Shown in pieces: positions 46,339 through 49,719 of a stretch of DNA of 64,000 nucleotides. Each line of letters starts with the position of its first letter. Positions within the stretch are counted from its first letter, which is position 1. A program made the position numbers and the translations under genes. The notes under the pieces were generated by a model. That model made no database searches. It was given only the letters and a program-made list of their open reading frames with translations, and was not told the origin of the DNA. Origin of the DNA: Dongshaea marina (GTDB lineage Bacteria; Pseudomonadota; Gammaproteobacteria; Enterobacterales; Aeromonadaceae); the NCBI RefSeq assembly GCF_003072645.1, contig NZ_CP028897.1, positions 4,627,501-4,691,500 on the forward strand, in the 5' to 3' direction.

Positions 46339-47367
46339 ATGAAAGCATTATCAAAACTCGAGTCCGCTAAAGGGATCTGGATGACAGATGTCCCCGAACC
46401 AGAGTTGGGCCACAACGATCTACTGATTAAAATAAACAAGACCGCCATCTGTGGTACCGATGTTCATATCTACAACTGGGATGAGTGGTCTCAACGCACC
46501 ATTCCGGTTCCCATGGTGGTTGGCCATGAGTACGCCGGGGAAGTCGTCGCCATCGGCCAGGAAGTCAGGGGCTTCAAAATTGGAGACAGAGTCTCGGGAG
46601 AAGGCCATATAACCTGTGGCCACTGCCGTAACTGTCGCGCTGGCCGAACCCACCTGTGTCGCAATACCATAGGCGTCGGGGTTAATCGCCCCGGCTGTTT
46701 CGCTGAATACCTGGTGATCCCCGCCTTCAACGCCTTCAAGCTGCCCGATGAGATCTCAGATGATCTGGCCGCTATTTTTGATCCCTTCGGCAATGCCGTG
46801 CACACCGCGCTCTCTTTTGATCTGGTCGGAGAAGATGTGCTGATCACGGGTGCCGGTCCCATAGGTATCATGGCCGCAGCCGTTGCCAAGCATGTCGGGG
46901 CTCGCCATGTGGTGATCACCGACATGAATGAGTATCGGCTGGATCTGGCGCGCAAGATGGGAGTCACCCGGGCGGTCAACGTCACCAAGGAAGATCTCAA
47001 GGGTGTGATGAAAGAGCTCGGGATGACAGAAGGCTTTGATGTGGGCCTGGAGATGTCCGGCGCCCCGGCTGCATTTCGCAGCATGCTCGATACCATGACC
47101 CATGGCGGCAAGATAGCCATGCTGGGTATCCCTCCCTCGGATATGCATATCGACTGGGACAAGGTGATCTTCAAGGGCCTGTTCATCAAGGGAATCTATG
47201 GCCGTGAGATGTTCGAAACCTGGTATAAGATGGCAGCCCTGATCCAGTCAGGACTGGATATCTCCCCCATCATCACCCACCACTATGATATAGACGACTT
47301 CCAGAAGGGCTTTGATGCTATGTGCTCGGGCCAGTCCGGAAAAGTGGTTCTCGACTGGACGAAATAA
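46339..47367 (+). CDS. tdh: L-threonine 3-dehydrogenase
   Basis: A 342-residue zinc-dependent dehydrogenase that oxidises threonine to 2-amino-3-oxobutyrate with NAD+. Catalytic zinc ligands Cys38 (AICGTDVH) and His63-Glu64 (GHEYAG). Structural zinc cysteines in [18 protein letters not shown] fold [11 protein letters not shown]. It works with kbl just upstream. AGGAAGA precedes the ATG. Because a strong terminator precedes it, tdh depends on read-through or on its own promoter within kbl. Confidence 0.95.
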
Positions 47368-47640
47368 TGAGCTACTCTCCCCCGGTCAATCCAGGGGAGT
47401 TTCTCTGATAAGCCTTCAAGCGGCTTTTGGTATATCCTACCGGATGGCTGATTTGCAGCTACGCTGCATGATTGCCGGGGTGCCGGCAGCACATCACTTT
47501 TGTGCCGCCAAAAGTAATCAAAAGCTCCCTTCGCGTGATGAGTCCCTCCATCAAGCTACGGTGCTCGACATCCCTGTCTCGAAAACAAAAACTGCAAGTT
47601 ACTTGCCCGCATCAGTGCTCACTCATGAGGGTTCAACTCC
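47368..47640. other. Intergenic mosaic sequence after tdh
   Basis: No gene. A palindrome-rich stretch follows tdh (CAAGCGGCTTTTGG, GCAGCTACGCTGC, TGCCGGGGTGCCGGCA). It reads as modular intergenic repeat DNA of the kind scattered in gammaproteobacterial genomes, but I could not name a family. Confidence 0.4.
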
Positions 47641-48030
47641 CCCCTTTGATTCGCACCGATAAATAGACTAAGTATTTGGGGTCGAACGACAGGATGTCGT
47701 GAGATGGCAGCCGGGATAGGGGTGAAAGTAACAAAACGAGAGGCAGGATGCCGAACTGGGAAGGCATATTATGGATGGTATGCATCCCGTTTGTCTGATA
47801 CCCCAAATAAGAAGCTATTTTGAGGGTAAACGCGAATCGAGGGGCACCCCCGGGGTTGTTAGGGGGACTGGTGAACATCCCCACCATACAGGGATGTATC
47901 AATGCCGTGGAAGGCAGGATGCCTGAAAACGGCCTGACCCGAAGTCCGCGGCCGGACGATTGTGCCGATGGTACAAAACAACCGCATGCAGGGCGAAAAA
48001 ACTAAGTATTCGCCCCTCATTTTCTCCTTT
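47641..48030 (+). ncRNA. Candidate CsrA-binding (CsrB-like) RNA or GGA-hairpin repeat
   Basis: Several mini-hairpins expose GGA in the loop: ACGACA-GGA-TGTCGT (47686-47700), GGCA-GGA-TGCC (47742-47752), ATACA-GGGA-TGTAT (47886-47899), AGGCA-GGA-TGCCT (47912-47924), and a larger one at 47764-47783. These match the CsrA consensus ACARGGAUGU. TTGATT, 17 bp, TAAGTA (47647-47675) resembles a promoter. GGGCGAA...TTCGCCC (47991-48015) followed by T-rich sequence resembles a terminator. TATTTGGGGT/ACCCCAAATA pair across 47673-47812. The implied RNA of about 350 nt is CsrB-sized. CsrB-like RNA is the inference; a dispersed intergenic repeat is the main alternative. Confidence 0.45.
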
Positions 48031-48372
48031 CGGGACAACCCCATGAAAAAATTTCAGATTAATAGTTGACAGCTCAGTCGATTTTACATACAAATACTAA
48101 TACTGAATTTATGAATAATTAGTTACTTAGCTTCTGGCTAGCTTTATAAGGATATCGCTCCAGTGATCCAGAAAAACCAACATAAACATATCCTCTTCCG
48201 ACGACGCTTCCACTGATCCTCTCAGGAGCAGCGCTTGCTCCGCCCCATTAACACTAGTTCCACAATCGATACGAGACAGATTTTTGAGAAGGGCTTTATT
48301 GCCCCGGGCCGCAAGAGTATGCCTCCGGCAGCCAGACAAGGCCTCACAAAGATACTGTCCTCCATCGATACA

Positions 48373-48390
48373 ACTGAATACATATTCAAA
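48373..48390. promoter_or_regulatory. ARG box (ArgR operator) upstream of argG
   Basis: TGAATACATATTCA at 48375-48388 is a perfect palindrome apart from its centre and matches the ArgR consensus TGAAT-N4-ATTCA. It lies about 56 bp before argG. ArgR with arginine would repress argG and argH. A weaker half-site TACTGAATTTATGAAT lies near 48101-48116. Confidence 0.75.
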
Positions 48391-48445
48391 TTAACTTGTC
48401 TTGTATCCATGATACCCGACACTTACTGCTCCAGGGAGAGATGGA

Positions 48446-49719
48446 ATGAAAAAGGTCAATAAGGTTGTGCTCGCTTACTCAGGTGGATTAGATACCTCAG
48501 CAGTTGTCCCCTGGCTCAAGGAGAGCTATCAGTGCGAGGTCATCGCTTTTGTCGCCGACATCGGCCAGGGAGCCGATGAGCTTGAGGGTATCGAGGAAAA
48601 AGCTTACGCTTCCGGGGCCGCGGCCTGCTACGTTGTCGACCTCAAAGATGAGCTTATCAGCGATTATATCTACCCGACCCTGAAAACCGGCGCCATCTAT
48701 GAGGGCAAATACCTGCTCGGAACCGCCATGGCCCGTCCGATCATCGCCAAGGCCCAGGTCGAGTTAGCAAAGCAGCTGGGAGCCGATGCCCTGTGCCACG
48801 GCTGCACCGGCAAGGGCAACGATCAGGTGCGCTTTGAAAGCTGTTATGCAGCCCTTGCCCCCGAGCTCACCGTCATCGCCCCCTGGCGTGAGTGGGAGCT
48901 CAAGAGCCGTGAAGATCTACTCTCTTATCTTGCCAAGCGTAATATTCCAACTTCGGCTTCGGTCACCAAGATCTACTCCCGGGATGCCAACGCCTGGCAC
49001 ATCTCAACCGAAGGCGGTGTTTTAGAAGATCCCTGGAACGCCCCCACCCCCGAGTGCTGGGTCTGGACCAATTCGCCTGAGCAGGCACCGGAAAAACCCG
49101 AGCAGCTGAGTCTCACCATAGAATCCGGAGAGATAGTTGCCGTCAATGATATTGAGATGACGCCGGCCCAGGCCCTTGGTTATCTCAATATCAAGGGCAG
49201 CGAGCATGGCATAGGACGTGTCGATATCGTGGAAAACCGCATCGTTGGGATCAAGTCCCGCGGCTGCTACGAGACCCCGGGGGAACCATAATGATGGAGT
49301 CTCTAAGGGCCATTGAGCAGCTGGTTCTGGATAAAGACTCCTACGACTTTCGTCAGCAGCTTGGGCAAAAGTTCGCCAACCTTCTGTACGAGGGACGCTG
49401 GTTTACCCCCCTGTGCCAGTCGGTGCTGGTCGCCGCCGAAAGCCTCGCTGATCTGCTTTCGGGCAAGGTGATCGTCAGCCTATACAAGGGCAATGTCAGT
49501 GTCTTGCAAAAGCAGTCGCAGAACTCTCTTTACAGTGAGGAGTTTGCCACCTTTGGTGAAGATGGTGTCTATGACCAGAGCCATGCCGAGGGCTTTATCC
49601 GCCTCTATTCCCTGAGTGAGCGGATCCGCAGTCTCAATAGCCAGCAGCAATCCAATGTAGAGAATATCAGTGAGTTAAAGCCTAACAACAAACCACCCTT
49701 GATGAAGGAGGTCGTATGA
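48446..49719 (+). CDS. argG: Argininosuccinate synthase, reading frame interrupted
   Basis: Joins citrulline and aspartate with ATP, the penultimate step of arginine synthesis. The ATG at 48446 follows GGGAGAG. Motifs: ATP-binding [25 protein letters not shown]. The first frame ends after [11 protein letters not shown] at 49291. The rest ([20 protein letters not shown] on) continues in another frame to 49719. One extra G in the G5 run at 49279-49283 restores the standard [10 protein letters not shown], giving ~424 residues. Read uncorrected, two frames of 281 and 142 residues would be called. argH overlaps the end by 4 bp, so the operon looks intact and the break is probably a sequence error. 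Confidence 0.9.

Follow-up and report, generated by a model that had tools for sequence, protein, structure and literature searches.

The stretch between tdh and argG in Dongshaea marina is, in our judgement, probably one copy of a dispersed mosaic repeat with a TwoAYGGAY-type RNA core, whose units, where transcribed, would bind CsrA as decoys or as 3'-end sites. It lies in a stretch of 64,000 nucleotides that was analyzed as a whole (hereafter, the window), and consists of a 5' module, a fork-shaped RNA unit, and a 3' module (Table 1). The 5' module also occurs elsewhere in the genome without the rest of the repeat, as similar partial BLAST matches indicate.

The element between tdh and argG and its spread in the genome

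Both neighboring genes run in the same direction, on the plus strand. The downstream neighbor, argG, occupies 48446-49719 as 2 open reading frames (ORFs) in different frames (profile positions 2-278 and 282-398 of 401), which is an apparent frameshift or sequencing error. Between the 2 genes, the first-pass annotation had reported at least 4 short perfect stems with GGA or GGGA in the loop, and this was borne out: 4 such hairpins were counted in 47641-48030, compared to a mean of 0.14 and a maximum of 2 in 2000 dinucleotide shuffles, none of which reached 4. Elsewhere in the window, on either strand, there is no cluster with more than 2 of these hairpins per 390 nt. The reported match to the CsrA-binding consensus was likewise found to be exact, with ATACAGGGATGT at 47886-47897 being the only exact match in the window to RTACARGGATGT (expected 0.03), which is the CsrA SELEX consensus. 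The preferred CsrA site is an ANGGA loop, while other GGA loops are weaker. Strict ANGGA is present in 2 of the 5 GGA hairpins of 47686-47924, which span 240 nt, and the remaining 3 are triloops with C rather than A two bases before GGA. Compared to shuffles, folding of the whole 390 nt is more stable on either strand (z -3.66 and -3.69), and since these values are similar, the fold test alone does not give a strand. Furthermore, a 15-base direct repeat, AATAGACTAAGTATT, was observed at 47662-47676, with a second copy (87%) at 47996-48010, near both ends of the element.

Table 1. Coordinates of the element between tdh and argG, its hairpins, and the flanking genes, counted from the first base of the window.
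Feature	Position	Strand	Basis
tdh, L-threonine 3-dehydrogenase, upstream neighbor	46339..47367	+	NCBIfam TIGR00692, 597 bits
5' module of mosaic repeat	47441..47591		91% identity, query 2-152, to G000:C1:3734487-3734636
GGGA-loop hairpin GACAGGGATGTC in 5' module, opposite strand	47567..47578	-	reads GACATCCCTGTC on +
Fork-shaped RNA unit, long-form copy	47643..47844	+	model R1, 107.3 bits, E 5.1e-22; fold z -5.39
Hairpin 1, ACGACAGGATGTCGT, perfect, GGA in loop	47686..47700	+	hairpin scan, R1 alignment
Hairpin 2 per R1 model, stem CGGGAT...ATCCCG, loop interrupted by insert	47712..47789	+	R1 alignment
Perfect GGA hairpin GGCAGGATGCC, within insert	47742..47752	+	hairpin scan
GGA hairpin GCATATTATGGATGGTATGC, within insert, loop TGGA, two G-U pairs	47764..47783	+	sequence; paired in two folds
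3' module of repeat, overlaps fork end	47817..47980	+	90% identity, query 378-541, to G000:C1:4602031-4602194
Perfect GGGA hairpin ATACAGGGATGTAT, exact CsrA SELEX consensus match	47886..47899	+	hairpin scan, motif search
Perfect GGA hairpin AGGCAGGATGCCT, in 3' module	47912..47924	+	hairpin scan
argG, argininosuccinate synthase, first part, downstream neighbor	48446..49291	+	NCBIfam NF001770, profile 2-278 of 401

The framing of the element by a promoter and a terminator, as proposed by the first-pass annotation, was not recovered by sigma-70 and terminator scans covering 47300-48400. In this range, the sense strand holds no sigma-70 consensus site, the only site being located on the minus strand (1 versus 1.2 expected). 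Three terminator-like sites were called (versus 1.2 expected), of which the one on the plus strand, at 47773-47787, lies inside the element; a GGGCGAA/TTCGCCC hairpin at 47991-48015, followed by a broken T run, was not called as a terminator. A search for a GacA box near the element was negative, a scan without power, as 3 CsrB-family control loci lacked a convincing box as well. Behind tdh, at approximately 47377-47399, there is a stem-loop with a short broken U run, with 17 of 200 shuffles of this region folding at least as well, and read-through from tdh may therefore be partial.

A BLAST search of the 621 bases at 47440-48060 against the same 5.1 Mb genome yielded 134 matches at E<=10 and 96 at E<=1e-5 (itself included), many of which are pieces of one site, corresponding to approximately 40 clusters. 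The covariance model R1 identified at least 131 matches at E<=10 and at least 124 at E<=1.2e-6 in the genome, counts that are probably lower bounds, since 150 of 1560 first-look candidates were scored and further copies were found in a search of 36 stretches. In the window, 47643-47844 is the only R1 match. The first-pass annotation had suggested counting genomic copies and had named many untranscribed copies as evidence against a CsrA-binding RNA; the many copies found here correspond to the copy-number half of that statement. In view of the BLAST and R1 copy counts, a single-copy sRNA gene was rejected as an explanation.

The 36 stretches were fetched around the BLAST clusters (201736 bases), and positions matched in at least 3 other stretches, with small gaps closed, were defined as repeat DNA (36037 bases, including some insertion-sequence DNA). 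It harbors 91 perfect GGA-loop hairpins (stem >=5, loop 3-4, either strand), compared to 3.5 in ten shuffles. With stems of at least 4, this number rises to 162 GGA hairpins with 68 different sequences, 61 of the form stem-A(N)GGAT-stem, and strict ANGGA is found in 98 of the 162. Irrespective of the loop, 408 hairpins with a stem of at least 5 were counted versus 71 in shuffles, and the GGA hairpins are thus one palindrome class among several. A second class, seen in the repeat DNA of stretches L045-L080, has the three-base loops GCA, GAA, and GTA, which read TGC, TTC, and TAC on the other strand and are carried by a restricted set of stems.

Protein coding was considered and set aside as well: the repeat DNA of the 36 stretches contains 19 ORFs of at least 120 aa, 4 of which are one 296-aa transposase, while the other 15 have 120-174 aa and none was seen to recur whole. 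The transposase frame belongs to an insertion sequence in or beside repeats at 4 sites (L053, L055, L069, and L080); its L055 copy, the one compared with Pfam, is a DDE transposase (PF13612). DNA-level relatives were found in none of 60 other genomes, 36 of them from the same family (BLAST, E<=1e-5, at most 9 candidates scored per genome). In seven genomes of one genus (g4) of this family, tdh is 89-91% identical to that of A. bivalvium, pointing to Aeromonas as this genus and to Aeromonadaceae as the probable family. A plasmid or phage origin was rejected, with no blastn match at E<=1e-5 in plasmid and phage collections, from which this organism's own records are possibly absent.

With respect to genomic placement, simple ORF calls (>=90 aa) within the 36 stretches gave both neighbors for 29 sites with R1 matches, comprising 13 convergent, 16 same-direction, and 0 divergent gaps; if a quarter of all gaps were divergent, we estimate the chance of this result at approximately 2e-4. 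Every scored unit site is a gap with at least one gene end, which makes read-through a likely source of the RNA. The upstream gene reads into the unit in 36 of 52 copies and away from it in the other 16. Neighboring fork units in opposite directions were observed at L048:2780-3074 and G276:C16:51163-51555.

Fork structure, covariation, and loop conservation

The unit is an RNA fork of approximately 142 nt, in which a three-way junction on top of a long outer stem carries 2 hairpins, the second being long and containing an internal mismatch. This fold is common to several types of 141-142-nt copies whose internal sequences are hardly alike, and single-sequence folds of 4 representative copies gave z-scores from -5.2 to -8.3. 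In an alignment of 12 copies, standard pairs fill 95.1% of the pair cells, and both sides have changed in 23 of 51 pairs, with none of 500 shuffles being as high. No shuffle came close on 4 of 5 measures, and the fifth, the number of pair types, showed no difference (44 versus 43.7 in shuffles). When pairing partners were slid by 1-3 columns as a control, pairing fell to 37.5-43.4%. Since these 12 copies had been selected with a pattern in which the outer stem is fixed, and 7 of them are near-identical, the count was repeated on 19 copies de-replicated to below 80% identity. In this set, the alignment of which is fitted to the model and therefore favors the structure, 90.6% are paired and 38 of 45 pairs have changed on both sides, which again was reached by 0 of 500 shuffles. 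Furthermore, it contains 62 G-U pairs compared to 8 A-C mismatches, identifying the strand that carries GGA as the strand that is kept.

The copy between tdh and argG is a long form, in which approximately 60 nt are inserted at the loop of hairpin 2, bringing 2 other GGA hairpins with them. In single-sequence folding, hairpin 1 and the outer stems are formed, but the hairpin-2 arm pairs differently, in that ATCCC pairs elsewhere, unlike in the R1 model. In short sister copies, hairpin 2 reads CGGGAT-AGGGAT-GTCCCG or similar.

Loop conservation was determined for the 52 copies that matched R1 with at least 46.7 bits, which are the top 52 of 71 rows (the other 19 rows, all at or below 22.7 bits, were dropped). 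GGA was found in loop 1 of 50 and in loop 2 of 48 of these copies, on 17 and 18 different stems, respectively; here, the copies with inserts (10 in loop 2 and 1 in loop 1) are counted via the GGAs inside the insert. Insert-free copies have GGA in loop 1 in 49 of 51 and in loop 2 in 38 of 42 cases. It should be noted that R1 includes the loops, so that its matches lean slightly toward GGA, although all 52 scored at least 46.7 bits. One copy of the 52 (L050:2521-2662, minus strand) carries GAA instead of GGA in both loops on intact stems.

Within the de-replicated set of 19, no variation was seen at the A, G, and G of either loop, and the final A is retained in 18/19 (loop 1) and 17/18 (loop 2). 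A(N)GGA occurs in 18 of the 19 copies for each loop on differing stems, with a base between A and GG that varies or is absent, and the 40 other unpaired columns average an identity of 0.70. Strict ANGGA is found in loop 1 of 12/19 and loop 2 of 18/19 copies, and exact AYGGAY in 7/19 and 5/19, respectively. Judged by its sequence, this two-loop signature is the CsrA loop signature. The retention of the loops together with compensated changes in the stems argues for a role as RNA. Therefore, when the first-pass annotation considered a dispersed repeat that imitates CsrA sites, it was right about the dispersed repeat and the CsrA-like sites, while "imitates" is too weak a word for loops that are kept as the stems covary.

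Kinship with TwoAYGGAY

The paper that first listed TwoAYGGAY rates it as "probably" an RNA, with a cis-regulatory role being improbable (PMC2864571), and binding of CsrA is proposed in an RNA-motif paper (PMC4333381). The Rfam model of this family, RF01731 (gathering cut-off 43 bits), does not match the tdh-argG copy even at E<=10, and we therefore refer to this copy as a variant of a TwoAYGGAY-type RNA and not as a filed member. Two sister copies (L073, own genome) exceed the cut-off with 48.7 and 43.5 bits. Searched alone in the D. marina genome, RF01731 gave 59 matches at E<=10, 1 of which is over the cut-off (with one more over it in a separate run), while among 14 well-known control genomes, 1 was matched at E<=10 and none over the cut-off.

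Within the order, R1 matched 18 of 394 genomes at E<=1e-4, and in a separate search 6 of 61 genomes at E<=0.001, the own genome being included in both counts. All 21 outside loci (L111-L131), several of which are close relatives of each other, show 2 GGA loops on one strand in single-sequence folding; the R1 match lies on this GGA strand in 10 of them and on the opposite one in 11, for which the GGA of the model was of no help. The latter is the case for L111 (G012), with 2 GGA loops on the strand opposite to the R1 match. When 14 of the 21 outside loci and 4 stretches of the own genome were searched with Rfam, 19 of the 20 matches at gathering score were TwoAYGGAY, which coincided with the place of the R1 match in 9 of the 14 outside loci; L112, L113, L114, and L127 had no Rfam match at gathering score.

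Among 14 chosen genomes, RF01731 was detected at E<=0.001 in 11, namely, 10 of the 11 R1-positive and 1 of the 3 R1-negative ones, with 10 to 37 matches in 4 genomes of one genus and 0 in 3 genomes. In a sample of the class, it was found in 14 of 369 genomes at E<=1e-5, 7 of which had 6 or 7 matches with 7 candidates scored; these counts are low, as the own genome scored none under the same settings. Thus, multiple copies seem common where TwoAYGGAY occurs, and the literature searched, which was mostly open-access, yielded no description of multi-copy TwoAYGGAY.

Alternative explanations and relation to known systems

The genome encodes one complete csrA, and 3 CsrB-family RNAs over the Rfam cut-off are located elsewhere in it. 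At G000:C1:3545587-3546113, CsrB-like matches of 77.2 and 38.6 bits lie in tandem, in addition to CsrB-family RNAs at 3016348 and 3364561. At G000:C1:2694452-2694689, a fork unit on the plus strand adjoins a minus-strand stretch that matches CsrB weakly and in part, with 21.7 bits. On the element itself, the CsrB model (RF00018) has no match at gathering score or at E<=10. That tdh and argG flank a dedicated sRNA gene of the CsrB type, the main proposal of the first-pass annotation, is therefore highly improbable: while 5 GGA hairpins within 240 nt and a size near that of CsrB would fit, the element is one of more than 100 unit copies and lacks a consensus promoter on the sense strand.

A palindromic repeat acting at the DNA level is a more serious, if unlikely, alternative. 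The hairpins of such a REP- or MITE-like element would serve the copying or moving of DNA, with GGA being incidental, and the high copy number, the modules that occur apart or paired in opposite directions, the other fixed-loop palindromes in the same DNA, and the absence of copies from divergent gaps all fit this explanation. However, A(N)GGA is retained on stems of varying sequence, the prevalence of G-U pairs over A-C mismatches gives a strand, and bacteria of other families have the same fork in the form of TwoAYGGAY. Moreover, the one transposase in the repeat DNA looks like a separate insertion sequence, although the mosaic may have a carrier. The RNA could also present its loops to a partner other than CsrA, given that the function of TwoAYGGAY is unproven in the literature consulted, that a three-way junction presenting paired loops might engage different partners, and that a third of the loop-1 hairpins lack strict ANGGA, but the presence of csrA and a signature in both hairpins that equals the CsrA signature render this quite improbable.

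CsrA is the favored partner, and several observations count against the RNA being a trap for it. Three CsrB-family RNAs already serve the genome, RF01731 misses the tdh-argG copy, the hairpin 2 of this copy does not fold as modeled, and 3 of its 5 GGA hairpins are weaker triloops. In addition, the gene upstream of 16 of the 52 copies points away from the unit, L050 has GAA loops, pair types are no higher than in shuffles, and many palindromes are devoid of GGA.

We infer transcription, CsrA binding, and any titrating effect as follows. The three-way junction at the end of the outer stem presents the 2 A(N)GGA-loop hairpins, which may form a pair of sites for one CsrA dimer; in the long form between tdh and argG, the insert adds 2 GGA hairpins and the 3' module another 2, resulting in 5 in all. 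The RNA would likely arise by read-through from neighbors such as tdh, and transcribed units, binding CsrA dimers across 2 loops, may serve as numerous small decoys or provide sites for CsrA at 3' ends. More tentatively, and doubtful as it stands, a TwoAYGGAY-type CsrA trap may have spread behind genes as a mobile-like mosaic repeat, so that read-through from many genes would jointly set the level of free CsrA; well over a hundred units, with on the order of 250 GGA hairpins, would then be involved. If true, CsrB would be replaced or supplemented by a distributed, dosage-like sponge. The genome raises the question whether repeats scattered over 3' ends can titrate a global regulator, or whether they label the ends of mRNAs for CsrA. 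More than 100 covarying units in one genome are strong evidence on what TwoAYGGAY keeps, namely, paired A(N)GGA loops, an anatomy that would tie TwoAYGGAY to CsrA, and suggest that apparent intergenic repeat DNA may hold functional RNA.

Compared to known systems, the element shares with CsrB, CsrC, RsmX, RsmY, and RsmZ several GGA hairpins per RNA and CsrA as the presumed target, but it has no Rfam match to them, occurs in many copies, and is without an identified promoter. RsmU sets a precedent for an mRNA 3' end that yields an RNA bound by CsrA/RsmA; according to PMC7694677, it is limited to Xanthomonas, is cut from the 3' end of an mRNA, and has 4 predicted GGA motifs, but its RsmA binding and overexpression effect persist when all 4 GGAs are replaced. 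Like REP and MITE sequences, the element is dispersed, intergenic, palindromic, and mosaic, but it differs from these in its loop conservation, stem covariation, strand, and kinship to an RNA family. With TwoAYGGAY, the short R1 copies have in common the three-way junction with 2 GGA-loop hairpins, and multiple copies are likewise found in several other genomes. The tdh-argG copy differs in the insert within hairpin 2, with hairpin 1 keeping its GGA, and the D. marina genome differs in carrying more copies than the others looked at, placed within a mosaic repeat.
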